A stretch of DNA of 17,116 nucleotides from Candidatus Aenigmatarchaeota archaeon. Its GTDB lineage: Archaea; Aenigmatarchaeota; Aenigmatarchaeia; PWEA01; B50-G16. The notes under the pieces are model-generated. The model had not been told where the DNA came from. It did no database searches and worked only from the letters and a program-made list of their open reading frames with translations. The stretch covers positions 1 through 17,116 of the forward strand of contig QMZU01000005.1 in assembly GCA_003663345.1 (NCBI GenBank). The letters are read 5' to 3'. Positions 1 to 15,530 of the stretch are shown one piece after another (the stretch's first letter is position 1; every line of letters begins with the position of its first letter). The translations under genes and the position numbers were made by a program.

Positions 1-85
1 GCATAATTCTCCATAACAATACTTCCCATTTCCAGTCTAACCAATCCCACTGGTCTGACCAATCCAAAACGCTCTCTTTATCCAT
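1..85 (-). CDS. Partial small Trp-rich protein (C-terminus beyond window edge)
   Basis: The gene opens with ATG at 85-83 and is still open at the left edge of the window, giving 28 visible codons. A full GGAGGTGA ribosome-binding site sits 6 nt upstream, and the ATG overlaps the TGA stop of the preceding gene (TGATG), so translation is probably coupled. The visible peptide begins MDKESVLDW and is very unusual: six of 28 residues are Trp, mixed with Asp and Glu. No family is recognised and the function is unknown. The ORF could be very short, since its end is not seen. Confidence 0.6.
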   Translation of the reverse strand, partial: MDKESVLDWSDQWDWLDWKWEVLLWRIM

Positions 86-99
86 CACATCTCACCTCC
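82..99 (-). promoter_or_regulatory. Recurrent stop/SD/start coupling sequence (example site)
   Basis: The minus-strand sequence GGAGGTGAGATGTGATGG combines the SD, the upstream stop (TGA) and the next start (ATG). Near-identical 18-mers occur at 2081-2098, 2294-2311, 2898-2915 and 3866-3883, with looser forms at about 4841-4857 and 5107-5122. At most of them the upstream protein ends Gly-Glu-X or Gly-Gly-Glu-X because of it. Confidence 0.8.
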
Positions 100-249
100 C
101 TTCCTCTCCCACAACACGCTTGCCGTAATCTCTACGAACCTCTCCGCCTTACACGTATCCTCCCAAACCGTCTTGCCGTTGTACCTCACTTCAACCCTGT
201 CCCTGGGTTTCATCCTGAGCCATACCTGAACCAACTCTCCAGCCTCCAC
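85..249 (-). CDS. Small hypothetical protein, 54 aa, GTG start
   Basis: A GTG start at 249 lies exactly 9 nt after GGAGG, and the SD (256-263) contains the stop codon of the upstream gene. The stop TGA overlaps the next ATG. The protein begins MEAGELVQVWLRM and is predicted to be mostly beta strand (VRYNGKTVWED) followed by one amphipathic helix. It ends in GGEM, residues dictated by the downstream gene's ribosome-binding site. One Cys is present and there is no membrane segment. No family is recognised. The call rests on the SD, the overlap and the tight packing. Confidence 0.6.
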   Translation of the reverse strand: MEAGELVQVWLRMKPRDRVEVRYNGKTVWEDTCKAERFVEITASVLWERKGGEM

Positions 250-255
250 CTGCTA

Positions 256-432
256 TCACCTCCTTTCCAGCGTGAAGAACGAGAAGATTATGAGGGCGTA
301 CAACATCCCCGCTTCCCAGGCCTCGGATGGATTCTCCGAGCACAGCTTCTCCATCAGGAGGCGTTTAAGTTCCTCGGCTTCCTCAACCGTCATGCTGCAG
401 CTCCTGAGTTTATTAACCAGCTCCCAGACCAT
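256..432 (-). CDS. Small helical hypothetical protein, 58 aa
   Basis: An ATG at 432 is preceded by AAAGGAGG with 9 nt spacing. The protein begins MVWELVNKL, has two helical segments rich in Glu, Leu and Lys with two Cys, and ends in a hydrophobic stretch (LYALIIFSFF, about residues 44-53). That stretch could be a short membrane anchor or a helix packing against a partner. The last codons AGG AGG TGA are the SD of the next gene. A TTAAATA string (458-464) lies 29 nt before the ATG, the spacing seen at the two clear promoters here, but the SD makes co-transcription with the upstream gene equally likely. No family is recognised. Confidence 0.6.
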   Translation of the reverse strand: MVWELVNKLRSCSMTVEEAEELKRLLMEKLCSENPSEAWEAGMLYALIIFSFFTLERR

Positions 433-455
433 CACTAACCGCCTCCTTTCAAGAG

Positions 456-671
456 CTATTTAACCGCCTCTTTCAACCCTATCCTCTCCTTGGGTCGGTG
501 AAATAATCGCTTTCTCACATAACCTGTCTCATCAACGACGATTGCCCTATCCGACGACACCACCAGATAATATCCATACTGCTTGTAGTCCCATACAGCG
601 GGTTTTACACCCATCCTCTCCAGCTCGTCGAGGAGTCTGTTCAGATTTTCACGTAAGCTACCCTCACCCAT
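456..671 (-). CDS. Small hypothetical protein, 71 aa
   Basis: I chose the ATG at 671 (MGEGSLREN) over the in-frame TTG at 677 because GGAGGGTGA lies 6 nt before the ATG, as at the other genes here, and would be too close to the TTG. The first third is a helix (LRENLNRLLDELERMGVKPA). The rest alternates short hydrophobic strands (YYLVVSSDRAIVVDE) with turns, so a small alpha/beta fold is likely. There is no Cys. No family is recognised. It lies 6 nt downstream of the small membrane protein. Confidence 0.7.
   Translation of the reverse strand: MGEGSLRENLNRLLDELERMGVKPAVWDYKQYGYYLVVSSDRAIVVDETGYVRKRLFHRPKERIGLKEAVK
458..464 (-). promoter_or_regulatory. Weak TATA-like site before the 58-residue gene
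   Basis: TTAAATA on the minus strand is centred 29 nt before the ATG at 432, in one of the few short gaps (433-455). The distance equals that at the two clear promoters. No GAAA-type BRE precedes it and the gene has its own SD, so it may be unused. Confidence 0.25.
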
Positions 672-677
672 CAGCAA

Positions 678-866
678 TCACCCTCCTCCCTCTATGTGTT
701 TGAATGCCCGTTTGAACAGCCAGCCGAGAAGGAGACCGACAGAGATGTACACGGGCAACCATACCCAAAACCCGTAGCGGTGCACTGGGTGTGTGATGGC
801 AAGTGCGTAGGCGCCAGCTATAAACCCGACCGCCAGTTCGTCAAGTATCCGTTCCCATATTTTCAT
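678..866 (-). CDS. Small two-helix membrane protein, 62 aa
   Basis: An ATG at 866 overlaps the stop of the upstream zinc-ribbon gene, with GAGGTGA 6 nt upstream. Two hydrophobic segments are visible: about residues 11-25 (LAVGFIAGAYALAIT) and 33-51 (FWVWLPVYISVGLLLGWLF). They are separated by a short His/Arg-containing loop, and a basic tail (KRAFKHIEGGG) follows. It is probably a small integral membrane protein of the host cell envelope. The charge pattern suggests both ends are cytoplasmic. Size and context would fit a holin-like, superinfection or membrane-modifying viral protein, but no family motif supports any of these. The C-terminal Gly run is encoded by the next gene's SD. Confidence 0.75.
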   Translation of the reverse strand: MKIWERILDELAVGFIAGAYALAITHPVHRYGFWVWLPVYISVGLLLGWLFKRAFKHIEGGG

Positions 867-994
867 CAGCAGTCACCTCTCGTATAGTATCCACAGGATG
901 GGCAGATGTCGTAGCTCCTGTTGTGCACTAGACCGCCTTCCTCCCATGTCCAGATGAGCACCTGCATCTCACAGTCACACTTCGGGCACTTCAT
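866..994 (-). CDS. Mini zinc-ribbon protein, 42 aa
   Basis: This very short gene has an ATG at 994 with AGGAGGTGG upstream. It encodes CPKC (C3, C6) and CPSC (C32, C35), a classic two-knuckle zinc ribbon with about 25 residues between the pairs, plus C8 and a C-terminal Cys. It ends RGDC, as does the Cys-rich protein at 11713-11967, because both genes finish on an almost identical coupling sequence, AGAGGTGACTGCTRATG. It is probably a nucleic-acid or protein-binding miniprotein. The role is unknown. Confidence 0.7.
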   Translation of the reverse strand: MKCPKCDCEMQVLIWTWEEGGLVHNRSYDICPSCGYYTRGDC

Positions 995-997
995 ACT

Positions 998-1186
998 TTA
1001 GCCACCTCCTCCTTCGGCATACTTCTTCAACATGTTTGTCAGTTTTGCCAGTTCCAAGGCCTTTAACGCCATCTCGTACCTGTCCAAGGCCTCCCTGTAA
1101 TGGCCCATATCCGCCAGACGTTTGCCCGACTCAAAAGCCCTCTCCGCCAGCTCCTTAAACGCTTCAACAAGCTTCGCCTCATCCAT
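998..1186 (-). CDS. Small helical TPR-like protein, 62 aa
   Basis: Two adjacent ATGs exist (1189 and 1186). I chose 1186 because it lies exactly 9 nt after the GAGG core and overlaps the upstream stop as TGATG. The protein is all helical. The segment GHYREALDRYEMALKALE has the spacing of a TPR helix pair (Gly-x-Tyr, Ala-Leu, Tyr, Ala-Leu), although only about one repeat is present. It resembles the 57-residue product at 5107-5280 (G-[HK]-Y-x-EA-[LF]-D), which suggests an old duplication. It is likely a small adaptor that binds a protein helix. The C-terminal Gly run comes from the overlapping SD. Confidence 0.7.
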   Translation of the reverse strand: MDEAKLVEAFKELAERAFESGKRLADMGHYREALDRYEMALKALELAKLTNMLKKYAEGGGG

Positions 1187-1422
1187 CATTTCCCACCTCT
1201 CAAGAACATTTTCTGAAGGACTTTCTGCGCCTTCTCTGTGCGGAGGAACTCCAACAACGCTTTAACGACGCACTGCTCCGTTTCCTTATCCCATAGCATA
1301 CAGCCGTCCTCCATACAGGTGGCGTTGATGAACGGGCAGACCTTCCTCCCCCTTAGCGCCTTCTTCTTTTCCTCAGACAGTTCGTTCCACCATTCACTCC
1401 ACAACTGAACACCCATTTTCAC
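1186..1422 (-). CDS. Small four-Cys protein (CPF...C...C...C), 78 aa
   Basis: The GTG at 1422 overlaps the upstream TGA (GTGA) and lies 6 nt after GGAGG. An ATG at 1416 (12 nt) is an alternative. After a Trp-rich N-terminal helix (LWSEWWNEL), four Cys appear at residues 29, 36, 41 and 51 in the arrangement CPF-x5-C-x4-C-x2-W-x6-C, followed by a helix. Compact four-Cys modules like this recur in phage and archaeal hypothetical proteins and probably bind one zinc. The reaction or target is unknown. The gene sits inside the row of small zinc proteins. Confidence 0.7.
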   Translation of the reverse strand: MKMGVQLWSEWWNELSEEKKKALRGRKVCPFINATCMEDGCMLWDKETEQCVVKALLEFLRTEKAQKVLQKMFLRGGK

Positions 1423-1703
1423 ACTTCACCTCCCAGTTCTTGAATGATTTCCGTCATCAACGAGTGGATTCTCTTTCTGGTTTTCCGTATCTCCTCCTCA
1501 ACGTCGGAAAGCATCTTACGGTGACTTTTCAGCTCCTCTTCGCGTTCCCTGTACTCTTCCTCGTCCAACTCACCGAACTCTCCGCTGAGAACCTTCTCAT
1601 CCAGCTCCACTAGGGCTTCGCAGTGACTTAGATTATCGTAGTCTTCCCTGAGGCGGTGTAGCAGTTCATGTAGTTCAATCAACTTATCCACTGCCCCTTT
1701 CAT
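1419..1703 (-). CDS. Coiled-coil protein, 94 aa
   Basis: The start is the ATG at 1703 (MKGAVDKLIELH). It overlaps the upstream stop as TGATG and follows GGAGG by 9 nt, so the in-frame GTG at 1706 is rejected. Almost the whole chain is predicted helix with heptad-like Leu/Ile and very high Glu/Lys/Arg content. Helices run at about residues 4-35 and 46-90, with a break at SGEFGELDEEEY. It looks like an antiparallel coiled-coil hairpin, suited to dimerisation or scaffolding. The end GGEV derives from the next gene's SD. No enzyme motif is visible and the family is unknown. Confidence 0.7.
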   Translation of the reverse strand: MKGAVDKLIELHELLHRLREDYDNLSHCEALVELDEKVLSGEFGELDEEEYREREEELKSHRKMLSDVEEEIRKTRKRIHSLMTEIIQELGGEV

Positions 1704-1921
1704 CACGGCTCGCCTCCAGACCTCAAGGCACGGTTGCCGCTAATCACCCAAGTCCTCCCTCCCGTAGACCACATAACCGTGTAGCTCCATGGCTCAAACT
1801 CCTCTACGGGAACGAGTATCTTGCCTCGACCTCCACACCTTGGACACTTCTGCCACCTCTTTCCGTCCGGCGTGGGAAGTATTCCCCTACCGTTGCATGC
1901 TGGACACTTTTTATACTTCAT
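1703..1921 (-). CDS. DnaJ-type zinc-finger protein, 72 aa
   Basis: Two CxxCxGxG knuckles (CPACNGRG at residues 6-13 and CPRCGGRG at 26-33) match the repeats of the DnaJ central zinc domain. Here they form a single two-repeat unit with no J domain, and a 40-residue tail rich in Trp and beta strand (WSYTVMWSTGGRTWV) follows. By family knowledge such units bind one zinc and unfolded peptides or nucleic acid. The annotated ATG at 1921 overlaps the upstream stop by 11 nt but has no close SD. The SD GAGGTGA lies 9 nt after its GAGG core from a CTG codon at 1933, five codons upstream. Confidence 0.75.
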   Translation of the reverse strand: MKYKKCPACNGRGILPTPDGKRWQKCPRCGGRGKILVPVEEFEPWSYTVMWSTGGRTWVISGNRALRSGGEP

Positions 1922-2084
1922 GCCTGTGGGTATCAGCTCTTCTCACCTCCTCTTTGGCATATATCTTGTAGTCCGCTATGACATGTGCTCCTCTAAGGCT
2001 GTACAGCTCTCGCATTAACTCCACCGTTGCCAGGACAGCGTCAGTAATGCTCTTGACCTCCACCTCAACAACAATCTTCGCCAT
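1911..2084 (-). CDS. Small alpha/beta hypothetical protein, 57 aa
   Basis: An ATG at 2084 follows GGAGG by 9 nt, and the SD holds the stop of the ribbon-helix-helix gene. The stop TAA lies inside the start of the DnaJ-zinc gene (11-nt overlap). The product begins with a strand (MAKIVVEVEVKS), then a helix (ITDAVLATVELMRELYSL) and a strand (HVIADYKIYA), and ends in a charged tail rich in Arg, His and Asp. That order is half of a ferredoxin-like fold, so it may dimerise. No family is recognised. Confidence 0.65.
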   Translation of the reverse strand: MAKIVVEVEVKSITDAVLATVELMRELYSLRGAHVIADYKIYAKEEVRRADTHRHEV

Positions 2085-2090
2085 CAAGTC

Positions 2091-2297
2091 TCACCTCCTG
2101 GCCTCTACGACTTCAGCCTCTTTGAACTCCATGTACGGCAAGTTTAGCTGTTTTCTACAAATCTGCTCTATCACGAAGCTTCTGTCCACCTTGAACTTGG
2201 AGGCTATTTCGTCCACCCTTGCCAACAACTCGTTAGACACAGTTATCAATATCCTCTTCCTACCGCTTATTTCCGCCTCATATCTGGCTCTATCCAT
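2091..2297 (-). CDS. Ribbon-helix-helix (CopG/Arc-like) DNA-binding protein, 68 aa
   Basis: The start is the ATG at 2297, which overlaps the upstream TGA and sits 9 nt from GGAGG. After about 12 residues comes a basic strand (GRKRILITVS), then helix one (NELLARVDEIASKFK) and helix two (DRSFVIEQICRKQL). This is the beta-alpha-alpha layout of ribbon-helix-helix repressors, in which paired strands from a dimer read the major groove. By family knowledge it would act as a dimeric transcription regulator, in archaeal viruses often autoregulatory. No operator repeat was found directly upstream, and since the gene is internal to an operon its target may be elsewhere. Confidence 0.8.
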   Translation of the reverse strand: MDRARYEAEISGRKRILITVSNELLARVDEIASKFKVDRSFVIEQICRKQLNLPYMEFKEAEVVEARR

Positions 2298-2548
2298 CAC
2301 CTCTCACCTCCCGGCCTCTTCGGCCTGTCCCGGGCCAGACCAGCCGTCCCGGCGCCGGTTGAAGACAATAGAGTATCTTGGCGGAGGAGCCGGGCTGTAG
2401 CGTCATGATGGCCGGCTGGCCTCTCGGGGGCCTTCTTAGGAAACAAGTCTGTCCAAGTCACCTTCTTGAACTGTTGCCGCTGTTCCTGAAGTGCCTTCCG
2501 AAGTTCATTTGCCTCCTTAGCGGTTTCCATAAGCTTTTTTACCCACAT
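2297..2548 (-). CDS. Hypothetical protein with coiled-coil start and GC-rich, low-complexity tail, 83 aa
   Basis: An ATG at 2548 overlaps the upstream TGA, with GGAGGTGA 7 nt before it. Residues 1-30 form a charged helix (KKLMETAKEANELRKALQEQ). From about residue 40 the composition changes sharply to Arg, Pro, Gly, Ala and Thr, encoded by a GC-rich stretch full of palindromes (2311-2430). The two halves have different codon bias, so the tail may be an insertion, a disordered region or a structured nucleic-acid element read through by chance. No frameshift can be shown. It ends GGER through the next SD. The function is unknown. Confidence 0.6.
   Translation of the reverse strand: MWVKKLMETAKEANELRKALQEQRQQFKKVTWTDLFPKKAPERPAGHHDATARLLRQDTLLSSTGAGTAGLARDRPKRPGGER
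2311..2430. other. GC-rich palindromic island
   Basis: This 120-bp stretch stands out from its neighbours by high G+C and by clustered palindromes: CCCGGG at 2329-2334, CCGGCGCCGG (perfect 10 bp) at 2349-2358, and several GGCC boxes. It codes for the low-complexity tail of the 83-residue protein. It may be a small insertion, a protein-binding site or a structured RNA part. Confidence 0.5.
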
Positions 2549-2901
2549 CAGCCTATCACCTCCACTTTGATACGAACCTTCTTGCCCTTAAAGGGCCTCA
2601 AGAGCTTGTGCACCTTCCTCGCACCTTCCCAGTGACACGGTCTCAACTCCCCGCATATGAGCTCGCCCTTCTCCAATCTGCTTTTCTGTTCGACGAGTTC
2701 TTCCAACAGGTTTTCAAGGTGGTATTCCCTCAAACTCTCCCACTCTCCCTTGAACTCCTCTGCAATTTCCTTTCTACATTCATCGGCATACTTCATGATG
2801 GTGTCCATGGTGACCGGCTCGTCGAACAACAGTAGGTCTCCACACTCGTATTCACTACACTCGTAGAGCCAGCCCTCAAACACCTTAACCTTCTTCACCA
2901 T
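2548..2901 (-). CDS. Hypothetical protein, 117 aa
   Basis: An ATG at 2901 overlaps the upstream TAA (TAATG) and lies 9 nt after GGAGG. The protein starts with strands (KKVKVFEGWLYECSEYECGD), has a long charged helical middle (about residues 31-80, strongly Glu/Lys) and ends in a basic strand segment (FKGKKVRIKVEVIG). Cys residues appear in pairs at both ends (CSEYEC near residue 15, CGELRPC near 85), so the ends may meet around a metal or disulfide. No known family is recognised. It lies between the winged-helix regulator and the coiled-coil gene. Confidence 0.7.
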   Translation of the reverse strand: MVKKVKVFEGWLYECSEYECGDLLLFDEPVTMDTIMKYADECRKEIAEEFKGEWESLREYHLENLLEELVEQKSRLEKGELICGELRPCHWEGARKVHKLLRPFKGKKVRIKVEVIG

Positions 2902-3221
2902 TACGTCTCACCTCCCGGCCTCTCCCTCCCGCCCATGCGGGTAGGGGGCCTCCTGGGAATGTAGTATTCGTACACGTACATCCACCTCCGAGAGTTCCAA
3001 AACACATGCCCACACTCTGGGCACTTGAACATCTTGCCCACACGCCTCCTAACCTTCCTCCTCTTCACCTCACCGCGCTTCAGCAAGTAGCACAGCACCC
3101 CGCTCAACGTGGTCTTGGGAACATCCTTCATAGCCTCACGGAGCTCCCTGAAAGTCTTGGGACCATCTGCCAGAGCCAATATAACTTTCCGACTCAGGCC
3201 GACGTTTTTTCGCCCCGGCAC
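2901..3221 (-). CDS. Winged-helix regulator with C-terminal zinc knuckle, about 106 aa
   Basis: The segment SRKVILALADGPKTFRELREAMKDVPKTTLSGVLCYLLKRGEVKRR reads as a winged helix (three helices then a basic wing). It is followed by KCPECGHVF, a single CxxC-x-H knuckle, and an Arg/Pro tail ending PGGET over the next SD. It probably binds DNA as a transcription regulator. The GTG at 3221 is preferred because GGTGGGAG lies just upstream. A GTG at 3266 would extend it by 15 residues but has no SD. Either start overlaps the upstream gene in another frame. The second half of a full zinc ribbon is missing, so the metal site may form by dimerisation. Confidence 0.75.
   Translation of the reverse strand: MPGRKNVGLSRKVILALADGPKTFRELREAMKDVPKTTLSGVLCYLLKRGEVKRRKVRRRVGKMFKCPECGHVFWNSRRWMYVYEYYIPRRPPTRMGGRERPGGET
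2928..2941. repeat. Short perfect hairpin in the regulator's tail
   Basis: CCCGC, loop CCAT, GCGGG form a 5-bp GC hairpin in the code for the Arg/Pro tail of the winged-helix protein, about 30 nt before the next gene's start. It is short, but flanked by the same GC-rich composition as the other hairpins. Confidence 0.4.
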
Positions 3222-3694
3222 AGCGTCTCCCACCCCAACAAGAGCCTGTTTATGTAGCCCAGCCACTTTCCCGGCGGAATCGTTATCCTCACCTCGTTTC
3301 CCTCCACCTCCACCTCAAGCCCCTTCTCGTAGATTTTCTCCACGTGTCCCCAGTAAACCATGTTGTAGCCAGAGCCGTCCCACAACACGGGTTGGAAGGG
3401 CTTGTAGAAGAAGCACGTGAGGTCGTACTCCGTCTTAGCCTCCCTGTCGAAGCCGTAGGCGTAGAGCACCGCATGGTACCTCTCCACCAACTTTCGGAAC
3501 GTAAACCTAAGCCACAGGTACAGCCTCTTCCAGGGAGGCAGCAGGTCGTAGAGTTCCCACAGGTCGTCGTGTCTAATCCACTCGTCCTTCGTGTAGAGAT
3601 AGACGCTCTTGACTTCAAACTCGCTCAGCACCTTCTTCAACTTCCTTGCGGCCTCCTCATGGGTGAAGTGTATGGTCACGAACTTATGCTTCAT
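3194..3694 (-). CDS. Hypothetical alpha/beta protein rich in aromatics, 166 aa
   Basis: An ATG at 3694 lies 9 nt after GGAGG, and the SD is inside the preceding gene (11-nt overlap). The N-terminus (KHKFVTIHFTHEEAARKLKKVL) gives a strand-helix unit. An aromatic and basic helical middle follows (WKRLYLWLRFTFRKLVERYH), then a C-terminal strand region (GLEVEVEGNEVRITIPPG). There are only two Cys, no signal peptide and no transmembrane helix. I recognise no family. The gene lies directly between a six-Cys zinc protein and the winged-helix regulator. Confidence 0.75.
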   Translation of the reverse strand: MKHKFVTIHFTHEEAARKLKKVLSEFEVKSVYLYTKDEWIRHDDLWELYDLLPPWKRLYLWLRFTFRKLVERYHAVLYAYGFDREAKTEYDLTCFFYKPFQPVLWDGSGYNMVYWGHVEKIYEKGLEVEVEGNEVRITIPPGKWLGYINRLLLGWETLCRGEKTSA

Positions 3695-3869
3695 CGCAGC
3701 CTACCTCCTTTTTATACTTCTCTATCGCCCACCTCAGCAACCGTCCCAAACACTCATCGCACAAACGAACCCCGCCGAGGTAAAAGTGAGGCTCTGGCAC
3801 CCTGATAGTCCGCTCATCCGTTTCCATGCATAAGTTCTTTCCGCACAGGGAACACCTACATTCGTCCAT
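3684..3869 (-). CDS. Six-Cys zinc protein, 61 aa
   Basis: The start is the ATG at 3869 (MDECRCSLCG). It overlaps the upstream stop as TGATG and carries the shared SD junction in the variant GAAGGTGA, so the in-frame GTG at 3872 is rejected. Cys at residues 4, 6, 9, 14, 37 and 40 form two pairs of knuckles (CxxC at 6-9 and 37-40) around a beta region, then a helix (LLRWAIEKYKKEV). The layout resembles the treble-clef and ribbon miniproteins common in archaeal viruses. One zinc is likely; a second is possible with C4 and C14. The partner is unknown. Confidence 0.7.
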   Translation of the reverse strand: MDECRCSLCGKNLCMETDERTIRVPEPHFYLGGVRLCDECLGRLLRWAIEKYKKEVGCDEA

Positions 3870-4045
3870 CACGTCTCACCTTCCTCTTTTACGTATTTGC
3901 ACAGTATGGCGTCCCACTCCTCCCCAGCCTTGTGCTCGCAGTAGTTGCACGCATATGCGTCTATCACCTCATCCCGCCTTGGGCAGTATACAAAAGTTAG
4001 TGTGATAACGAACTTCTTCAGTCTCCTCACCGCTTTCTCAGTCAT
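3869..4045 (-). CDS. Small Cys/His zinc-binding protein, 58 aa
   Basis: An ATG at 4045 follows GAGGTGA and overlaps the preceding gene by 8 nt. The stop overlaps the next ATG. A basic N-terminal helix (MTEKAVRRLKKF) leads into a strand (VITLTFVYCP). Then C33-x2-C36-x-H38 and C49, with C21, supply ligands for one zinc (CNYCEH is the visible core). The basic N-terminus would suit nucleic-acid or ribosome contact, but that is inference. The end GET is written by the next SD. Confidence 0.7.
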   Translation of the reverse strand: MTEKAVRRLKKFVITLTFVYCPRRDEVIDAYACNYCEHKAGEEWDAILCKYVKEEGET

Positions 4046-4229
4046 CGCATCTCACCTCGACTTCAGACTCGTGCCAGACAGACGTGGCACACTCCTCCCC
4101 AAGCAGGTCGTTCAGCCACTCCTCGGCGAGACGCTTGGCCTCCTCCTCGTCCCTTGCGGGAACCCTGAACTCTAGGATATACCTGACCGTCCACCACCTT
4201 TTCTTCAGCAGTTCATTTAGTTTGCTCAT
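4038..4229 (-). CDS. Small alpha/beta hypothetical protein, 63 aa
   Basis: An ATG at 4229 overlaps the upstream stop (ATGA), with GGAGGCGAG before it. Predicted order: helix (SKLNELLKKR), strand (WWTVRYILEFRVPA), helix (DEEEAKRLAEEWLNDLLGEE), strand (SVWHESEVEVR). The strand then helix block, with Arg-Val-x-Ala-x-Asp-Glu-Glu-Glu-Ala, is common in small proteins that fold as a beta-alpha-beta-beta sheet. No catalytic motif is seen and the function is unknown. Confidence 0.7.
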   Translation of the reverse strand: MSKLNELLKKRWWTVRYILEFRVPARDEEEAKRLAEEWLNDLLGEECATSVWHESEVEVRCDD

Positions 4230-4843
4230 GTCTCCTCGCCTCCCCGGTTTACCCAGAGCGCGTAGCCGGCGGGGTATACCTCCACGTGGCTGTCGAAAGT
4301 CAGCTTACACGTCATCTTCGGAAACTTCACCAGCAACGTGCGGGGAAGTTTCGCGACGGCGACCATGTCCCCTGTCCAGAGGTAGCATCGAGCCCATACC
4401 AGGTCAGTCGGCGGATATTTCATGGTTCCCAGCTCGATTCTGACTTCGTTCGGCAGTTTTTCGAACTCTAGACATCTGCTCCAGAAGCCCCAGACGAGAC
4501 ACGCCGTACCCCTCGATGTGAGGTCTTCGTTCCTCGCTAGCCGTATTCCAATCGTCCCGGGGCGTGGAAACATGCCCTCGAAGGGGTAGTCGAACGTCGC
4601 CTTCATTATCCCCGCCAGAGATTTCGCGGTCTCTTCGATAGCTTTCTCGAATTTCTTTCCTAGGTAGGGCCTCGGCAGGCTTTTCAGAGCCAACTCCAGC
4701 AGTGACTTCTCCTCCGGAAATAGTTCTTCATACGGACAGGTGCGTCGGCCTCCGACCAGGTAGTTCATGTCTTCAACGGGCAGTAGCTCGTCGACGGGAA
4801 CGCCGACCTCCTGTTCAAACTTTTCTTCAGCCTGCTTGACCAT
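4226..4843 (-). CDS. Hypothetical protein, 205 aa
   Basis: I chose the ATG at 4843 (MVKQAEEKF) over a GTG one codon upstream because it matches the 9-nt spacing. Its SD is the weaker GGGGTGA and the upstream gene ends 12 nt away, a rare gap here. The first 80 residues are helical with a Pro/Glu-rich linker. From about residue 85 it becomes beta-rich and aromatic (GTIGIRLARNEDL, ACLVWGFWSRCLEFEK, HVEVYPAGYALWVN). Four Cys are scattered. It is one of the few medium-sized genes in this region, so it may carry a specific enzymatic or binding role, but I recognise no motif. Confidence 0.75.
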   Translation of the reverse strand: MVKQAEEKFEQEVGVPVDELLPVEDMNYLVGGRRTCPYEELFPEEKSLLELALKSLPRPYLGKKFEKAIEETAKSLAGIMKATFDYPFEGMFPRPGTIGIRLARNEDLTSRGTACLVWGFWSRCLEFEKLPNEVRIELGTMKYPPTDLVWARCYLWTGDMVAVAKLPRTLLVKFPKMTCKLTFDSHVEVYPAGYALWVNRGGEET

Positions 4844-4855
4844 CACGTCTCACCC

Positions 4856-5110
4856 CTAGCATATCTCCACCTTGGCCTTTGTGAGAAGCGAGGCCAGCCT
4901 CCTGCTCAGCAGTTCCTCGCTACGCTTTATGCTCAGGTACTTTATCCAGGCTTCAGCGGCGTCCAGGAACTCGGCGGGACTCAGCCTCAGGTCGGCGGTG
5001 AGTTCGGTGAACAGCTCGCCGATTTCTTCGTCCATCTCCTTAAGCTCCTCCAACAGCATCTTCCTCCTTCTCAGCAACTCCTTTAATCTCCGTACCTTCT
5101 CCTCATTCAT
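4856..5110 (-). CDS. Coiled-coil protein, 84 aa
   Basis: An ATG at 5110 overlaps the upstream TGA (ATGA), with GGAGGTGA 6 nt earlier. The first 38 residues are a continuous charged helix (NEEKVRRLKELLRRRKMLLE and onward) with Leu heptads, followed by a short break (TADLRLSPAEF) and a second helical half (LDAAEAWIKYLSIKRSEELL). It ends at TAG just before the next gene's SD. A helical hairpin or dimer is likely. Nothing suggests an enzyme. Confidence 0.7.
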   Translation of the reverse strand: MNEEKVRRLKELLRRRKMLLEELKEMDEEIGELFTELTADLRLSPAEFLDAAEAWIKYLSIKRSEELLSRRLASLLTKAKVEIC

Positions 5111-5280
5111 CGCGTCTCACCTCCTTCCCGTTCCTTCAGCAACTCTATTGTGCATAACAGTTGCAAGACGTCTTCGGTCACGTCGAAGGCTTCCGAGTAT
5201 TTTCCTGCAGACACTAATTGTCTAGCTTCTTCCAGGTATTTCTCCGCCAGGGCTTTCAACTCTCTAACGGCTTCACTCAT
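5107..5280 (-). CDS. Small helical TPR-like protein, 57 aa
   Basis: This short gene starts at ATG 5280, 9 nt after GGAGG, and overlaps the dCTP deaminase stop as TGATG. An adjacent ATG at 5283 is too close to the SD. The product is all helix. GKYSEAFDVTEDVLQLL parallels GHYREALDRYEMALKAL in the protein at 998-1186, both preceded by an Ala/Glu-rich helix. That gives the helix-turn-helix of a single TPR-like or MIT-like unit. The end GGETR is SD-encoded. It is probably a small protein-binding adaptor. Confidence 0.65.
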   Translation of the reverse strand: MSEAVRELKALAEKYLEEARQLVSAGKYSEAFDVTEDVLQLLCTIELLKEREGGETR

Positions 5281-5834
5281 CATGCCTCACCTCCGATTTC
5301 TTTCTCGGTTTCAAACTTGGGAAGTACGACGCCCCTCTGACGTTGATACTGTCCTCTGTACGGTTTCTCGACAGGCGAGGTAAGCTTGCAGAACACCACA
5401 TGCAGGAACCGCTGTCCCTTGTAAAGCTTCACGGGGAACGCTCCTCCGACCAACTCTATTACGAGTTCCCCTTCGAAGCCTGCGTCGATTATCGTGGGTG
5501 GCGTGAAGAGGCCGAGACGTGCGAAGGTTGAGCGGAGGCAGCAGAATCCCATGAGGTCGTCGGGTAGAGCTACGTATTCGAGTGTGTTCACCAAAACCCG
5601 CTCGTCGGGGTATACTATCAGCCCCTCCTTCTCGTCGAAGTCCACTTCTCTAAAGTTGTCTGGAAGCACGGCTTTACGTGTGTCCATGATTACGCCGCTC
5701 CGCAGCAGTGAAACGCTTTTGCCGCCGAGCCTGAGGTCTACGCCGTTCTCCCTTATCGTGTCGTCGTGTAGTGGGACTATCTTCAGTCTTCCTTCATCGA
5801 TGGCTTTCCTTATGTCGCGGTCTGACAGAATCAT
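5280..5834 (-). CDS. dcd: dCTP deaminase / dUTPase-family nucleotide enzyme, 184 aa
   Basis: The start MILSDRDI is typical of Dcd. Family motifs follow in order: ENGVDLRLG (29-37), RSTFARLGL (101-109), IDAGFEGELVIEL (116-128) with the expected catalytic Glu at 127, and a C-terminal YRGQYQRQRGVV that matches the nucleotide-closing tail. Such enzymes deaminate dCTP to dUTP, and the bifunctional type then hydrolyses it to dUMP, feeding thymidylate synthesis and keeping uracil out of DNA. Which activity applies cannot be told by eye. Viral copies raise the dTTP supply for replication. The length is normal, and the ATG overlaps the upstream stop (ATGA). Confidence 0.88.
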   Translation of the reverse strand: MILSDRDIRKAIDEGRLKIVPLHDDTIRENGVDLRLGGKSVSLLRSGVIMDTRKAVLPDNFREVDFDEKEGLIVYPDERVLVNTLEYVALPDDLMGFCCLRSTFARLGLFTPPTIIDAGFEGELVIELVGGAFPVKLYKGQRFLHVVFCKLTSPVEKPYRGQYQRQRGVVLPKFETEKEIGGEA

Positions 5835-6463
5835 AGTTTCACGGCTCCTCTTTCAGTTATTGCAAACACTCCGTCGCCCGTTATTTCCACGGCGAAGACC
5901 TTTATCCCATGTTCTACGATATGTTGCACCCTTTCGTTGGCCGTGGTGGTTTTAATGACGTGACGACAGAACGGACACATCCAGAAGCCGTAATATTCGA
6001 GTTGGTCTCCGAGTCCCTGAGCCTTCTCTATCAGCCAGTTCGTCTTTTCCAAAGCCCATTTCCACTCGGCTTCCGTCCCTCTACGTGCGAGTTCAACCTG
6101 CCTCCTGTACTCGTGGTAGTCTATCTCGCCATTAGCCAGCTTCGCCTCCGCCTCTCCCTCCCTCTCGTAGTTGGTTATCACCAAATACAGGTCAACCATA
6201 CCGTCCTTTCTGTATTCAGGGTAAATTCCCGCAAGATATGCTCGTGGGTATTTTAGGGCTATTTTCTTTATCGGCCACCTCCAGTCCTCGGGGTGGTCTT
6301 CAGGCGAAACCCAGATGTTTATCGCTCCACCTCCACGACTGTCGTAGAGCCCGCCTTTGTCGAGGTCCAGGTCCCTCGCTATACGGTGCATGTTCAGGAA
6401 TACCCATCTTGGGACGGTGGCTATCTTCTTCTCGTTGGGAGCGAAAATGTATTTCTGTTTCAT
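5831..6463 (-). CDS. Hypothetical protein with C-terminal C2H2 zinc finger, 210 aa
   Basis: An ATG at 6463 overlaps the upstream stop, with AGGGTGA before it. A candidate internal promoter lies at 6498-6514. Residues 1-150 are unrecognised: an N-terminal basic/aromatic segment, a Trp- and Pro-rich middle (WVSPEDHPEDWRWP), then long helices. Near the C-terminus C163-x2-C166-x14-H181-x3-H185 forms a C2H2-type finger (CPFCRHVI), followed by a two-strand end (GDGVFAITERGAVKL). C2H2 fingers are frequent in archaeal viruses and usually bind DNA. This one could be a regulator or a DNA-processing protein. Confidence 0.75.
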   Translation of the reverse strand: MKQKYIFAPNEKKIATVPRWVFLNMHRIARDLDLDKGGLYDSRGGGAINIWVSPEDHPEDWRWPIKKIALKYPRAYLAGIYPEYRKDGMVDLYLVITNYEREGEAEAKLANGEIDYHEYRRQVELARRGTEAEWKWALEKTNWLIEKAQGLGDQLEYYGFWMCPFCRHVIKTTTANERVQHIVEHGIKVFAVEITGDGVFAITERGAVKL

Positions 6464-6930
6464 GATGTTTCACCCTGTTTCATGTTAGGAATTTTCTGTA
6501 TATTAATGTTTCCAACGGGTTCAAGCTTCAGCTCCACGCCGAGTATCCGGTGGAACTTCACAAACCTCATCACCTTCCACGTCTCAACGCCGTTCGAGTC
6601 TCTGGTCATCACGACGGTCTCCCACTCAGGATTGTAGTCTCTACCTGGGACAGGCGGACTGTACGTCATCTTCACCTGCTTCATCTCAGCCCACAGAACG
6701 GTGACGCCTTCCCTGTTGGCGTGTTGAACAAACTCCGCGATTATCGTCAGCGGCAACACGGGAACCACAACGTCGAACCCATGTTTCTTCACGTACTCGA
6801 CCAGCCACTCAGCGTTCGGCACAAACCCGCTGTACTGCTTCAGCTCGTACTCACCGTAGATGCGGGCGAGTTCTTCGAGCTGCGCTTTAAGCGGTTTATG
6901 TCTGCTCGTCCAGAGTATCCTAACTGACAT
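6460..6930 (-). CDS. Rossmann-like protein, possible Csx15/16/20 (ring-nuclease) relative, 156 aa
   Basis: I chose the ATG at 6930 because GGAGGCGGAG lies 10 nt upstream; the longer reading has no SD and covers the neighbouring gene. The N-terminus is a strand ending in Ser-Arg-His (ILWTSRH, residues 5-11) followed by a Gln/Leu/Glu helix (KAQLEELARIYG). Next come FDVVVPVLPL (52-61), a helix, and VTVLWAEM (76-83). This strand-SRH-helix and D-VVV-LP pattern resembles the small Csx15/Csx16/Csx20 proteins of type III CRISPR loci as I know them, several of which degrade cyclic oligoadenylates. The match is by eye only. The C-terminal 70 residues are unlike them. Confidence 0.55.
   Translation of the reverse strand: MSVRILWTSRHKPLKAQLEELARIYGEYELKQYSGFVPNAEWLVEYVKKHGFDVVVPVLPLTIIAEFVQHANREGVTVLWAEMKQVKMTYSPPVPGRDYNPEWETVVMTRDSNGVETWKVMRFVKFHRILGVELKLEPVGNINIQKIPNMKQGETS
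6498..6514 (-). promoter_or_regulatory. Candidate internal promoter inside the SRH-protein gene
   Basis: On the minus strand TGGAAACATTAATATAC matches the promoter at 11993-12009 at 16 of 17 positions. From its TATA centre (about 6502.5) transcription would start near 6476, giving a 13-nt leader that contains the AGGGTGA ribosome-binding site of the C2H2 gene at 6463. It lies in the last coding part of the gene at 6460-6930, so the match may be due partly to coding sequence. Confidence 0.45.
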
Positions 6931-6944
6931 TTTTTCTCCGCCTC

Positions 6945-7163
6945 CTAGACCTTTATCACCTCTACGGTTCCAATCTTGTGAATTGTACAGCCGGTACCTC
7001 TGAACACTGTACTCCACCACTCCACTATTCTGTCAGCTTCCTCCTCGTATCTCACTGCATCCCACTTGATAAGGCGGCCCTCTTTATCAAACACAGCTAC
7101 TGCCCACCTCCACCGATAGAAGCTACTAAGTGTCTGGCCCCTCATACCTCTGCCACGCTTCAC
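6945..7163 (-). CDS. Small hypothetical protein, 72 aa, GTG start
   Basis: The GTG at 7163 overlaps the upstream stop (GTGA) with GGAGGTGA just before it. An ATG at 7145 is a possible later start. After a basic N-terminus (KRGRGMRGQ) comes strand WRWAVAVFDKEGRLIKWDAV, then a helix (YEEEADRIVEWW), and a final strand block (CTIHKIGTVEVIKV). This is a compact beta-beta-alpha-beta layout. The basic head would suit nucleic-acid contact. It ends at TAG 14 nt before the next start. No family is recognised. Confidence 0.65.
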   Translation of the reverse strand: MKRGRGMRGQTLSSFYRWRWAVAVFDKEGRLIKWDAVRYEEEADRIVEWWSTVFRGTGCTIHKIGTVEVIKV

Positions 7164-7498
7164 TGTCTCACCTCCTCTTCACTAATTTTAGCTTTAGCAG
7201 TCTTTTGTTCTTTGGGCAGTATTTCAGCTAAAGTCTTTAGCCACCTCTCTATGGTTTTCAGCTCCTCCAGAGCGTAGTGTATGGCCCTTAGGTCTCTGCG
7301 GACCCTAAACTCAAATAGACCTGTATCCATCGTGTAGAAACCAGGCTCCCTCTTCGCTTCTATGACAGCCGCCGCCAACTCAACTATTCCCTTCCTCAAA
7401 GAGGATGTGAGTTCTTTCACTTCCTTGTATAACACAGCCGATTCCTTATCCAACTTATCTAACGTGCTTTCATACTTCAACTTCTTCGACTTACTCAA
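7160..7498 (-). CDS. Helical hypothetical protein, 112 aa, TTG start
   Basis: The TTG at 7498 lies 9 nt after a GAGG core (GAGGCTGAGAAGC), matching the rule seen elsewhere, and overlaps the upstream gene by 8 nt. The protein is nearly all helix: a basic Lys/Ser start (SKSKKLKYESTLDKL), helix pairs through residue 50, a short loop (GFYTMDTGLFEFRV), then helices to the end with a Lys-rich tail (PKEQKTAKAKISEEE). There is no Cys. A helical bundle that binds a partner or DNA is possible. The family is unknown. Confidence 0.7.
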   Translation of the reverse strand: MSKSKKLKYESTLDKLDKESAVLYKEVKELTSSLRKGIVELAAAVIEAKREPGFYTMDTGLFEFRVRRDLRAIHYALEELKTIERWLKTLAEILPKEQKTAKAKISEEEVRQ

Positions 7499-7625
7499 GC
7501 TTCTCAGCCTCTTTCACCTCGTTTTTGACTACCTCGACTATGAACTCGCGCTCAAGCCCGTGCTTCTCCAACGTCTCGACGACCCAGATGAGGTAGTCCT
7601 CGAAGTCTCTAACAACCCTCCTCAT
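7491..7625 (-). CDS. Very small helical protein, 44 aa
   Basis: An ATG at 7625 has GGAGG exactly 9 nt upstream and overlaps the preceding gene by 17 nt. The stop overlaps the next start by 8 nt. The product is one or two amphipathic helices (VVRDFEDYLIWVVETLEKHG, then EFIVEVVKNEVKEAEKLE). The double overlap and the perfectly placed SD are the main evidence that it is real, because its size alone would not be. The function is unknown. Confidence 0.55.
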   Translation of the reverse strand: MRRVVRDFEDYLIWVVETLEKHGLEREFIVEVVKNEVKEAEKLE

Positions 7626-8076
7626 GCTCCTCTCCCTCCACGTCCACTAGAAGAACCCACTCTTCGGGAACGACTTTGAACCTACCTTTCTTCAGGGCTT
7701 CTACGACACGCCTATGGCCCTTTTCTGCCTCGTCCTTGGTACGGTAGCGTAAACACAGCCAACACTCAACGTCACGAGGTTCATCGACAAAGACCATAGT
7801 TTCATACCATAGAGGTTCTTCTGGTGTTCCATAGTTGAGTTCGAGGAACACTGTAGAGACAACTCCTTTTAGGACGCCTATTTCTGATTTAATCTCGAAC
7901 GGCGTTTTAATGTGCCATCTATCTCTGTGGAAGACGTACCCGCACTCGCAGACACATGTAAATCCATGTTGCTTCCACGGGTCGGTGTCTTCAGGCACCA
8001 GCGGAACACGTTTCAGCTTAACCAACTCTGCAGTAGTGTAGACCTTGCCACACTTACCGCACTTCCACTCGCCCAT
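7609..8076 (-). CDS. Zinc-ribbon hypothetical protein, 155 aa
   Basis: An ATG at 8076 has GAGGTGA 7 nt before it. The N-terminal 50 residues form a zinc ribbon: C6-x2-C9 (CGKCG), a beta/basic linker, then C41, C43 and C45 (CVCECGYVFH) with H50. The remainder is alpha/beta with strands such as VVSTVFLELNYG and ETMVFVDE, a helix rich in Glu/Lys (KDEAEKGHRRVVEALKK) and a final strand (EEWVLLVDVEG). Fusion of a ribbon to a ferredoxin-like tail would suit an RNA- or DNA-binding factor. It ends EGC over the SD of the 44-residue gene. Confidence 0.7.
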   Translation of the reverse strand: MGEWKCGKCGKVYTTAELVKLKRVPLVPEDTDPWKQHGFTCVCECGYVFHRDRWHIKTPFEIKSEIGVLKGVVSTVFLELNYGTPEEPLWYETMVFVDEPRDVECWLCLRYRTKDEAEKGHRRVVEALKKGRFKVVPEEWVLLVDVEGEEHEEGC

Positions 8077-8078
8077 GT

Positions 8079-8312
8079 CTACTTCACCTCTATCACTTTC
8101 TTTCCCTCGGGTTTGGCAAGCTTGAAGCGTTCACACACCACTCTCTTTGACCGGCAGTCAGGACAGTAGATGTCGGCGCGTCTTCCGAACTCACACTGAT
8201 GAAACCAAGGACAATCCTCGACGACACAGGCGAGGCACAGGCATATCGGCGTTTCTTCAGGCCACTCTGCCCACCCGTTGTCTTCCAGCACTTCGAGAAG
8301 CCTATTCCTCAC
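8079..8312 (-). CDS. Cys-rich zinc-binding protein, 77 aa, GTG start
   Basis: The GTG at 8312 lies exactly 9 nt after GGAGG and overlaps the upstream gene by 11 nt. After a 20-residue helix, eight Cys at residues 24, 26, 29, 34, 40, 50, 53 and 60 are spread over 37 residues (motifs CLCLAC, CPW, CEFG, CPDC). Two metal sites are plausible. The pattern, including Gly-Arg-Arg before the CPDC knuckle, resembles small conserved phage and archaeal zinc proteins whose function is not known. It is the most Cys-dense product in the window. Confidence 0.7.
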   Translation of the reverse strand: MRNRLLEVLEDNGWAEWPEETPICLCLACVVEDCPWFHQCEFGRRADIYCPDCRSKRVVCERFKLAKPEGKKVIEVK

Positions 8313-8700
8313 CTGCTTTCACCTCCCCCCGCCGTGCCCTTTCTTGGGCCGTGCGGGTCTGGGAGCGGGAAAAATAGTTTTGTTTACGCTTACCCTCCTC
8401 TCCGAGTATGCAGCGTAAATAGTTGACAGCGTCCTGTAGGACGTTAATTGTACGGGTGTACGAAGCTATTGTGCCCCTGATATATTTAGTATTGCCAGAG
8501 GCCCTGAATACGTCGTCCCTCAGCTCCTTAAAGAACTCGATACGTTCCTCCAGAAACTTTATCGCGTCCTCAAAACCTTTCCTAAGGCCGTCTCTGAACC
8601 CCTCGTCGTACGCTATCCTCTTCAGATGCTTGATGTACTTTATCCGCTCTGACCTGTCCTCCGTCACCCTGATAAGCTCAGCCCACTCTAGCTCGTTCAT
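8302..8700 (-). CDS. Helical hypothetical protein with basic tail, 132 aa
   Basis: An ATG at 8700 overlaps the VWA gene's stop (ATGA) with GGAGG 10 nt upstream. Residues 1-100 are long helices rich in Arg/Glu (SERIKYIKHLKRIAYDEGFR, FLEERIEFFKELRDDVFR), with one Cys at about 97. The last 30 residues switch to a basic, disordered tail rich in Arg, Gln and Thr, encoded by a GC-rich stretch that contains a long hairpin (8328-8357). Following the VWA gene directly, it could be an accessory factor of the AAA+/VWA pair. The family is not recognised. Confidence 0.7.
   Translation of the reverse strand: MNELEWAELIRVTEDRSERIKYIKHLKRIAYDEGFRDGLRKGFEDAIKFLEERIEFFKELRDDVFRASGNTKYIRGTIASYTRTINVLQDAVNYLRCILGEEGKRKQNYFSRSQTRTAQERARRGEVKAGEE
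8328..8357. repeat. GC-rich hairpin with internal loop
   Basis: On the plus strand CCCGC and GCGGG, then GCCC and GGGC, pair around a TTTCTT loop, with a CGT/CGT internal loop between the two stems. It lies in the code for the basic tail of the 132-residue protein, near its stop, where it may act as a structured mRNA element or DNA site. Confidence 0.5.
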
Positions 8701-10691
8701 CCTGCGTGCACCTCCCTCATTATCAGTTTAGTTAGGTACCGGGTGAGCACTTTCCCCACTTCGTCGAAGTCTTTGACGACCACATGCCTGTTCGGGAACA
8801 TCTCTTCCATCAGCTTCTGCGGGTAAGGGTCGCGAGCCACGTTGACGTATATTCCTACGACGGAGATGCCTTTTCTAGCCGCCTCTAACACCGTTTTCCG
8901 AGTTTCTTTTACCAGCCACAGGGTGCCTAAGCGTCCTTTCGTTGAGAACGACTGAGGCTTCCCGTCGGTGATGATTATGAGTAGTTTCTTCGGATGTCTC
9001 TTACGGGAAAGTATGTGGACGCCGTATTGAACTGCGAGAGGTGTAGGCGTGTATCCGTCAGCGTAGAGCTTCGCCACGTCTTCGGGTTTCTTACATCTTT
9101 GAACGTCTATCGAGAACTTCGACGTGTCTTCCTGACGCCATGCGTAGACCTCGAGGTCGACGTATTTCTTCAGAGGTTCAAGCGACTTCCACAGAGTGTA
9201 TAGGATGTCCTTCGCGTATTGAATGTTCCATCCGTCCATGGACCCGCTGCAGTCGACGCCTATGGCTATCGCCATTCCGGGACCTACGTCCTCGGTCACG
9301 AAGGGTTCACCCGTTTTTCTGACCTTAAACTGAATGTAGTCGTCCAAGTCGACCTCAAGACCTTCTTCGTCTCTCACCTCGACGAGTCTTCCCCTAAGTT
9401 TCTCCCAGAAACGGTGGAGCTGACGGTAGCAAGGCAGTAGTTTGAGGACGTCGGTTTCGCCTTCCACGGAATTCCTTACGTTGACGAAGCCTTTAACTTC
9501 AGGAACCCTATTCTTTACGACTCTGAATTTGGGCGCTGAAAGTCTTTTCTCAAGCCATTTAAGATACGTCTCGGCGGCTTTCCTCTCATGTTCCAACCTG
9601 TCTTGAAGCTCCTTTCCTTCAAGGTGAACCACGTCCTCCAGCTTCTCCAAGTCGCGGTTAGACATCTCTTCGAACTCTTCTCTGAGGTATTTTCTGGCGT
9701 TTTCTCCATGTTCAGGCACAGCGGCGCTGAGTATGCGTGCCGCGTTTTCAAACGTTTTCTGCATTAAGGCGAATTCACGTATATCGAACCTTCCGGTGTC
9801 CTCGCATCTCTCAATCTTCGACTCAGCTTCTTTCAATAACTTCAGTGCATTCTCGTACAGCTCTTCGAGTTCTCTCTTCTCCTCGTCTGGCATTTCGGCT
9901 CCGTTGAGCTTGTCCTGTATTTTCTCCATTATCTCCTGAATCTCGGCCACCGTTTTCTCCGCCTGTTTCGCCGCTTTCATGGGATTGCTGAAGAACTCCC
10001 TAAAATACTGGTCGCGGAACTCCTGCGCCTTCTCAGACGCCGAAACGAAACATTCCCGTATTTCGTCGTATTTCTTTAGGTACGGGAGTAGATGTTTCTC
10101 GACGAAAAGCTTCGTGCATATTACCGCGCCTTCGTACGTCGTGTATCTAACCTGCTCGAAGAGTTTAACCGCGTCGTTATAAGCGTCCAGATACTTGGAC
10201 GAGTCGTAAATAGGTGGTTCTCCGACGAAGGCGTTAAGGAGTGCTCCTACCGGGTCCTCGGTTATCTTTAGCTCCTCAAAGAACGTCTTTCTGAGGATTC
10301 TAAACCTCCTAGCCGTGCCCCTGTAGATTCGCCCCCAGAGGCTTTCGACGCGCTCGTCTTCGAAAGCGTTGAGTGCGATGAATATTGGCACGTAGTTACG
10401 GGAGTTATACGGGAATCCAAACACCTCAAGAATCCTGCGGACCGCTGAATCAGGGTCTTTACTGTCGAATAAGACGTGGCTGAGTTCATGCTCGAGTAGC
10501 GTGTAGGTTTTGAGTGTGAGAGGTTTTTCATGAGGTAGGAATATCGCCTGTCTTTTGTGGTCGTAGCATGGCTCGGCGCCAGGTTCGATGTAGAGTTTGA
10601 CGCGTTTCCTCTTCAGCTCGTTGACGATGTTTTTCGTTTTGTGGAAGACGTCTCTTCCGACCGGTGTTGAAAGATAATTTTCGGACTCCAT
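8697..10691 (-). CDS. VWA-domain protein with zincin-like N-terminus (CobT-like), 664 aa
   Basis: Three parts are visible. Residues 60-130 contain HELSH (68-72) and ALNAFEDERVE (106-116), an HExxH metal motif followed by the Asn-x-x-Glu-Asp-x-Arg-x-Glu signature of CobT-type proteins. Residues about 190-400 are long charged helices. The C-terminal VWA domain has an intact MIDAS: DCSGS (480-484), Thr in GYTPTP (548) and ITDG (Asp 576). In the family, VWA proteins work with the adjacent MoxR/CobS AAA+ ATPase as a chaperone or metal-insertion machine; phages and the two-tailed archaeal virus ATV carry such pairs. No cobalamin gene is nearby, so true cobaltochelatase activity is unlikely. It overlaps the ATPase gene (TAATG). 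Confidence 0.88.
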   Translation of the reverse strand: MESENYLSTPVGRDVFHKTKNIVNELKRKRVKLYIEPGAEPCYDHKRQAIFLPHEKPLTLKTYTLLEHELSHVLFDSKDPDSAVRRILEVFGFPYNSRNYVPIFIALNAFEDERVESLWGRIYRGTARRFRILRKTFFEELKITEDPVGALLNAFVGEPPIYDSSKYLDAYNDAVKLFEQVRYTTYEGAVICTKLFVEKHLLPYLKKYDEIRECFVSASEKAQEFRDQYFREFFSNPMKAAKQAEKTVAEIQEIMEKIQDKLNGAEMPDEEKRELEELYENALKLLKEAESKIERCEDTGRFDIREFALMQKTFENAARILSAAVPEHGENARKYLREEFEEMSNRDLEKLEDVVHLEGKELQDRLEHERKAAETYLKWLEKRLSAPKFRVVKNRVPEVKGFVNVRNSVEGETDVLKLLPCYRQLHRFWEKLRGRLVEVRDEEGLEVDLDDYIQFKVRKTGEPFVTEDVGPGMAIAIGVDCSGSMDGWNIQYAKDILYTLWKSLEPLKKYVDLEVYAWRQEDTSKFSIDVQRCKKPEDVAKLYADGYTPTPLAVQYGVHILSRKRHPKKLLIIITDGKPQSFSTKGRLGTLWLVKETRKTVLEAARKGISVVGIYVNVARDPYPQKLMEEMFPNRHVVVKDFDEVGKVLTRYLTKLIMREVHAG

Positions 10692-11967: not shown

Positions 11968-11992
11968 GGTCGTATTAGAAGGGGAATAACGG

Positions 11993-12009
11993 GTATATAA
12001 ATGTTTCCA
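11993..12009 (-). promoter_or_regulatory. Archaeal BRE/TATA promoter of the MoxR-VWA operon
   Basis: On the minus strand the element reads TGGAAACATTTATATAC: a purine-rich BRE (GGAAACA) followed by TTTATATA centred at about 11997.5. The predicted start of transcription, 26 nt on, falls at about 11971, four bases before the ATG at 11967. This indicates a leaderless or near-leaderless transcript and explains the absence of an SD there. It lies in a 50-nt gap, one of only two real gaps in the window. Confidence 0.75.
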
Positions 12010-12017
12010 CTTGTTTC

Positions 12018-14238: not shown

Positions 14239-14239
14239 C

Positions 14240-15462: not shown

Positions 15463-15476
15463 AGCTATAAACATTT

Positions 15477-15484: not shown

Positions 15485-15487
15485 CTG

Positions 15488-15502: not shown

Positions 15503-15504
15503 TG

Positions 15505-15520: not shown

Positions 15521-15530
15521 AGAGACCGGC

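Follow-up and report, generated by a model that had tools for sequence, protein, structure and literature searches.

A repeated 18-bp Shine-Dalgarno and stop/start sequence at the gene junctions of a putative archaeal mobile element

The DNA analyzed here (the window) is the entire 17,116-base contig QMZU01000005.1 (C5) of a Candidatus Aenigmatarchaeota archaeon bin, which comprises 951 kb in 183 contigs. In the gene model, all 41 genes of the window are located on the minus strand and are connected by 40 junctions. An 18-bp sequence, GGAGGTGAGANGTGATGG, which combines a Shine-Dalgarno sequence with a stop/start, is repeated at junctions in the left part of this gene string. These repeats are probably signals for translation initiation between the cistrons of a long string of co-oriented genes, which would belong to an archaeal virus or a similar mobile element. 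An earlier note on this DNA had proposed strong selection for coupled translation or the swapping of gene cassettes as the cause of such a repeat. The observation is partly confirmed and the proposal partly supported: the repeat is sound in its main part, coupling is the best explanation and a small extra nucleotide signal is supported.

With ≤ 3 mismatches, GGAGGTGAGANGTGATGG was found at 12 sites between positions 82 and 5294, all on the coding (minus) strand (Table 1), versus a mean of 0.10 and a maximum of 3 matches in 200 shuffles; the repeat is therefore real. The main sites which had been named before (82, 2081, 2294, 2898 and 3866) have 0 or 1 mismatch each, and the looser copies reported near 4045, 4843 and 5110 are present with 3, 2 and 2 mismatches, respectively. 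In the whole assembly, the pattern occurs five times with ≤ 1 mismatch, only in this contig. The motif is not common to all junctions, but is confined to the left third of the string. The copy at 1933 begins 29 nucleotides (nt) before the ATG of the gene model at 1921, and an in-frame CTG at 1936 lies 15 nt upstream of this ATG. The position of the motif hints that the zinc-finger-like gene 1703-1921 may use CTG 1936 as start codon.

Table 1. Copies of the 18-bp motif, gene blocks and recognized proteins in the window.
Feature	Position	Strand	Remarks
Motif, 0 mismatches	82..99	-	ATG at 85; upstream protein ends GGEM
Loose copy, 3 mismatches	1183..1200	-	start 1186; upstream protein ends RGGK
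Loose copy, 3 mismatches	1700..1717	-	start 1703; upstream protein ends GGEP
Loose copy GGAGGTGAGAAGAGCTGA, 3 mismatches	1933..1950	-	14 nt before in-frame CTG 1936; upstream protein ends RHEV
Motif, 1 mismatch	2081..2098	-	start 2084; upstream protein ends EARR, TGA inside Shine-Dalgarno, spacer non-coding
Motif, 0 mismatches	2294..2311	-	start 2297; upstream protein ends GGER
Motif, 1 mismatch (TAATG overlap)	2898..2915	-	start 2901; upstream protein ends GGET
Motif, 1 mismatch	3866..3883	-	start 3869; upstream protein ends EGET
Loose copy, 3 mismatches	4042..4059	-	start 4045; upstream gene in another frame, ends VRCDD
Copy, 2 mismatches	4840..4857	-	start 4843; 16 of 18 nt outside upstream gene, which ends VEIC
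Copy, 2 mismatches	5107..5124	-	start 5110; upstream protein ends GGETR
Loose copy, 3 mismatches	5277..5294	-	start 5280; upstream dCTP deaminase ends GGEA
Left block: 22 mostly short genes (one cut at the window's left end) plus dCTP deaminase gene upstream	1..5834	-	junctions carry the motif
Remaining gene string, same strand	5831..16895	-	0 motif copies at ≤ 3 mismatches
dCTP deaminase	5280-5834	-	recognized protein
AAA+ ATPase adjoining VWA protein	8697-11713	-	recognized proteins
XPF/ERCC4-HhH nuclease	12018-12698	-	recognized protein
AEP-TOTE/PriCT primase	14240-15217	-	recognized protein
Rad51-like ATPase	15531-16280	-	recognized protein
SWIM protein	within 5831..16895	-	recognized protein
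Cas4/PD-(D/E)XK-like protein	within 5831..16895	-	match below cut-off

Most of the 18-mer is a Shine-Dalgarno sequence plus stop/start, which is the ordinary known layout for coupled translation. The 16S rRNA 3' end GGATCACCTCC was present in all four archaeal 16S loci obtained from five genomes searched; three of these loci come from genomes of the bin's own order or class, whereas the assembly of the window itself yielded no 16S. As all four loci end in GGATCACCTCC, GGAGGTGA is a full-length archaeal Shine-Dalgarno sequence. At 11 of the 12 sites, the site starts 14 nt before the ATG, and GGAGGTGA or a close form stands at this distance with a fixed gap of 6 nt to the start. Over the 22 starts of the left block, the informative positions are mainly the start codon, -14 to -7 (Shine-Dalgarno) and -2/-1 (TG of TGATG). 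Stop and start overlap by 1 nt at 12 and by 4 nt at 8 of the 40 junctions (20/40 together). Shine-Dalgarno, 6-nt gap and overlap are thus directly visible.

Coupled gene pairs (ATGA or TGATG) with an intragenic Shine-Dalgarno sequence are widespread in archaea and bacteria according to the excerpted text of two sources (Huber et al. 2019, PMC6728339; PMC2784483). The pairs of Huber et al. (PMC6728339), which include archaeal ones, resemble the window junctions in the overlap types -1 and -4 and in the Shine-Dalgarno sequence within the upstream 3' end, whereas many of the window junctions additionally share a near-fixed 18-mer with spacer bases which do not pair with 16S rRNA. An overlap or a stop/start distance of a few nt was found in the window, as was a Shine-Dalgarno sequence at initiation distance, judged by the four archaeal 16S loci. 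The coupled translation proposed in the earlier note fits these overlaps and the fixed distance well, and we infer coupling from this layout. The ribosome would end the upstream gene at TGA or TAA, the strong Shine-Dalgarno sequence in the last codons of the upstream gene (or in a short gap) would hold it, and it would restart at the ATG overlapping or adjoining the stop. In addition, about nine junctions of the left block share a preferred spacer, namely GA, any base and mostly G.

The repeat had also been said to force the upstream proteins to end in GGE-X. Such ends are encoded at 82, 1700, 2294, 2898 and 5277 (with GGETR at 5107), but not at 1183, 1933, 2081, 3866, 4042 and 4840, and the GGEV end counted among the motif sites belongs to junction 1422, outside the 12 sites. 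Relative to the upstream gene, the motif is in phase 0 at eight sites, in phase 1 at two and in phase 2 at two, and at both phase-1 sites (2081 and 4840) the spacer lies in non-coding DNA. As the motif is read in other phases too, the GGE-X tails arise only incidentally from phase 0; as two coding phases and two non-coding sites are involved, the spacer is shared at the nucleotide level. Among the best 120 of 792 dCTP deaminase homologs, only P0122 has a GGE-X tail, and this protein is 99% identical over 64% of the query, evidently from the same element. A protein-level constraint on GGE-X was rejected due to the differing phases, the sites partly outside of genes and the 119 of 120 listed dCTP deaminases without this tail. 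A separate observation concerns the primase, of whose relatives P0001-P0012 several end in IKP...G(V/T)-like tails; in the window, this tail is encoded by the Shine-Dalgarno sequence of the next gene.

Beyond the Shine-Dalgarno sequence, mainly a G at -6 (14/22 starts of the left block) and an A at -5 (11/22) are conserved. It is unlikely that this similarity arose by coincidence, with no extra signal, from strong Shine-Dalgarno sequences and compact overlaps on a coding strand rich in G and A (34% and 27%, respectively, in 1-5300). For comparison, 3000 null sets were generated in which the Shine-Dalgarno, start and stop bases were kept and the four spacer bases were randomized. Random spacers still formed a cluster of about 5 starts, with 10 as the largest in all sets, and for ≤ 2 mismatches the largest observed cluster of 5 starts exceeded the expectation from local spacers (2.4, p = 0.010), but not significantly that from spacers of archaeal sites (3.0, p = 0.068). 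For ≤ 3 mismatches, however, 9 starts were observed versus 4.8 with local (p = 0.001) and 5.4 with archaeal spacers (p = 0.016). Furthermore, 10 of 22 GGTGA near starts are followed by GA, versus 3 of 31 in the rest of the window (p = 0.004); in this count and in the similarity tests from -40 to -15 described below, one start was set at 84 instead of 85. A weak spacer excess (p = 0.015) was also obtained for the 19 right-hand starts, which lack the motif, therefore part of the spacer signal may be general. The claimed conservation beyond the Shine-Dalgarno sequence holds modestly, and no established mechanism accounts for this extra signal.

As a control, GGAGGTGANNNNTGATG was searched in 200 archaeal genomes of the phylum of a Bathyarchaeota genome, which are unmatched in base composition or descent. 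It was found at 33 sites in 28 genomes (≤ 3 per genome), these being sequence matches and not confirmed gene starts. Several results weigh against a reading of the repeats as plain Shine-Dalgarno sequences with overlaps. When the layout is exactly GGAGGTGANNNNTGATG, the spacer starts with GA at 3 of 4 sites in the window versus 1 of 33 control sites (p = 0.002). Extended 16S pairing was rejected as an explanation for the G after GGTGA, because 16S rRNA has an A at this position; the base after GGTGA would need to be T to pair on, hence GA does not serve 16S pairing. In addition, no GGAGGTGAGANGTGATGG site with ≤ 3 mismatches lies above 5294, leaving the right two thirds of the gene string empty, and the Shine-Dalgarno signals of the 19 right-hand starts are much weaker. 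When only GGTGANNNNTGATG was required, GA was present at 5 of 8 window sites (p = 0.0004), and with GGTGA in place and any start at 8 of 12 (p = 1.9e-5), both settings being looser than the control. The spacer sharing thus exceeds what compact initiation signals alone give. Most likely, the shared spacer reflects a nucleotide preference for initiation or is a trace of junctions copied during the gain of small genes.

To judge the strength of the repeat, 133 other loci of ≥ 10 kb were used, which had been fetched for other reasons and are not a random sample. The self-clustering of start-like 18-mers is 10 in the window and only 1 or 2 in 107 of these loci. The highest value elsewhere is 7, in ten contigs all repeating one A-rich Shine-Dalgarno sequence with the start; weaker start-linked repeats therefore exist elsewhere. 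Eleven phage contigs with a primase match (L006-L016) repeat AAAAGGAGGGAAATATGA with 6-7 copies in 15-21 kb, which is possibly another start-linked repeat.

As a further explanation, a protein or RNA encoded by the element would act as a regulator, bind at a site which overlaps the ribosome-binding site and control translation of the small genes jointly, as is one option for the start-associated sequences (SAS) of mycobacteriophages. Such a site would account for extra bases without 16S pairing which occur only in the small-gene block, in two phases and partly in non-coding sequence, and the block encodes a protein of 68-69 amino acids (aa) with a weak RHH match (E = 0.03, under the Pfam cut-off). 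However, no regulator was identified, and a common RNA hairpin at the junctions was seen neither in the folds, which differ by eye between the 22 junctions, nor in the inverted-repeat scan. Of 12 stretches, which extend from the sites to about 110-120 nt upstream, 2 contain an inverted repeat of ≥ 12 nt, and these are unlike each other. We consider joint regulation improbable.

Somewhat more doubtful still is the explanation that the junctions are homology sites for the recombinational exchange or insertion of small gene cassettes, as proposed for boundary or regulatory sequences of phages. Mobile regulatory cassettes have reportedly been described for T4-type phages by Arbiol et al. in 2010. 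Cassettes would suit the left 5.3 kb, in which the genes are short and most are without family, and a 205-aa protein which, among 265 candidates, matched only itself. Upstream of their Shine-Dalgarno sequences, the junctions 2084, 2297 and 2901 have AGAGGCC[AG]G in common; this additional match of 8-9 nt is only a hint of cassettes. The best upstream extensions were found for 2297/2901, 2084/2297 and 85/2901 (best p = 0.014; the third-best was reached in 0 of 1000 null sets). Over the 22 left-block junctions, similarity is above background at -20 to -15 (p = 0.005), but at background level at -40 to -21 (p = 0.74). Downstream, the third-best pair of extensions exceeds the in-frame null (p = 0.016), the best pair does not (p = 0.11), and similarity is above this null at +4 to +9 (p = 0.002), but not at +10 to +42. 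Homology deep into the downstream genes was therefore rejected; an earlier, stronger signal came from a null which ignored the phase. The starts 4045 and 5110 match by 77% over 48 nt across the motif, a value with no null of its own. Comparison of the 41 proteins yielded likely paralogs encoded at 998-1186 and 5107-5280 (40% identity over 60 aa, E = 6e-5). For homologous recombination, 18 bp is short. The junction extensions and paralogs are compatible with junctions having been copied or duplicated on occasion, but are no demonstration of exchange. It is similarly doubtful that the 18-mer is an element-wide junction module of an archaeal virus, serving as ribosome-binding site, stop/start overlap and landing homology at once. 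If it were, a small gene bounded by the 18-mer could be inserted and immediately translated by coupling, and both the common spacer and the extended matches at 2084, 2297 and 2901 would be insertion scars. The same 41-protein comparison gave further likely paralogs in the string, 456-671 and 11713-12021 (E = 3e-4).

The closest known counterpart of the repeats are the SAS. In the excerpted text of Pope et al. 2011 (PMC3203893), each genome of the Cluster K mycobacteriophages carries 11-19 SAS at start codons, located in the half with the non-structural genes. The SAS combine a Shine-Dalgarno core with conserved bases which do not pair with 16S rRNA, are almost all in one orientation and are accompanied at about half of the sites by imperfect 17-bp inverted repeats upstream (ESAS); the authors leave a role in translation and recombination both open (PMC3203893). 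Measured against this text, the window is alike in that bases outside of the 16S pairing are conserved at some of its starts, although its excess is modest, and in a motif of one orientation limited to one part of the genome. Its copies are less uniform than the SAS, and 8 of 12 overlap the upstream stop in one phase, as some SAS do too (PMC3203893). The 13-bp SAS GGGATAGGAGCCC had no match with ≤ 2 mismatches in the window, whereas the positive control (positions 30000-52000 of phage TM4) gave 8 matches, all on one strand. No shared upstream inverted repeats like ESAS were found in the 12 stretches, where strongly diverged repeats could be missed. Since the sequence and the upstream inverted repeats differ, the window repeat is SAS-like, but not a member. 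Phage boundary sequences, as cited in PMC3029335, and mobile cassettes are likewise repeated short sequences between small genes; exchange at these sites is their defining property. Among the titles listed for archaeal viruses and Shine-Dalgarno, no archaeal-virus repeat of this kind appeared, which is no proof of absence.

Proteins of the window were scanned against Pfam (30 of 41) and PHROGs (10), and among those scanned no capsid or packaging protein was recognized. The recognized proteins (Table 1) suggest a virus or related mobile element of an archaeon, and we infer the archaeal host and viral nature on this basis. The AAA+ ATPase is CobS/MoxR-like and about 24-25% identical to cyanophage proteins. 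The G+C content is 0.51 in the window versus 0.44-0.47 in seven other sampled contigs of the bin. In tetranucleotides, the window is distant from the sampled contigs, but contig L197 is distant as well. An archaeal-type AMP phosphorylase encoded in the bin scores above its cut-off, and contig C104 of the bin (L225, G000:C104) holds the TRAP-transporter genes DctP, DctQ and DctM, which we take to be of a kind known from bacteria. With archaeal-type genes as well as a TRAP-transporter contig, the bin looks mixed, and it is poor evidence for the identity of the host. Another contig of this bin, L202 (G000:C7), contains a 15-kb stretch with no reading frame > 151 aa and no Rfam match.

No relatives with comparable gene order were found in DNA-level searches of viral contigs, phages and relatives of the bin. 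The VWA, dCTP deaminase, 166-aa and 117-aa proteins had no relative in the viral contigs (viral_contigs), and Megablast against phages as well as a degenerate DNA pattern for a primase motif gave no match. The 23 nearest listed primase proteins are 43-52% identical, while at the DNA level the best segment of the primase loci reaches at most 41% identity among the matches listed. Among 60 genomes related to the bin, 32 yielded a primase match, with E = 3e-10 at best. Sixteen stretches of viral contigs contain the exact 17-mer, each a single time. In 213 fetched loci, the 18-mer with ≤ 3 mismatches was absent from 192, present once in 20 (of which 16 had been fetched for the 17-mer itself) and twice in one; an element built alike, with multiple 18-mers, was not seen among these loci. 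The sequence GGAGGTGAGACTCAATG in contig C104 was dropped, as it adjoins the TRAP-transporter genes and is not part of a like gene string. A second contig (20,974 bases) encodes near-identical copies of two window proteins, P0121 and P0122. P0122 begins with MYKRQ, presumably a trace of a sequencing adapter; the second contig may end at MYKRQ and reach further to the left than the window does.

The repeat looks like a start-associated repeat outside of the mycobacteriophages, probably archaeal, which is fused with stop/start overlaps. If relatives show exchange at the repeats, this would explain how small accessory genes are gained without loss of expression. If there is no exchange, the junctions would form a natural series for asking whether the bases between the Shine-Dalgarno sequence and the start matter in archaeal reinitiation.

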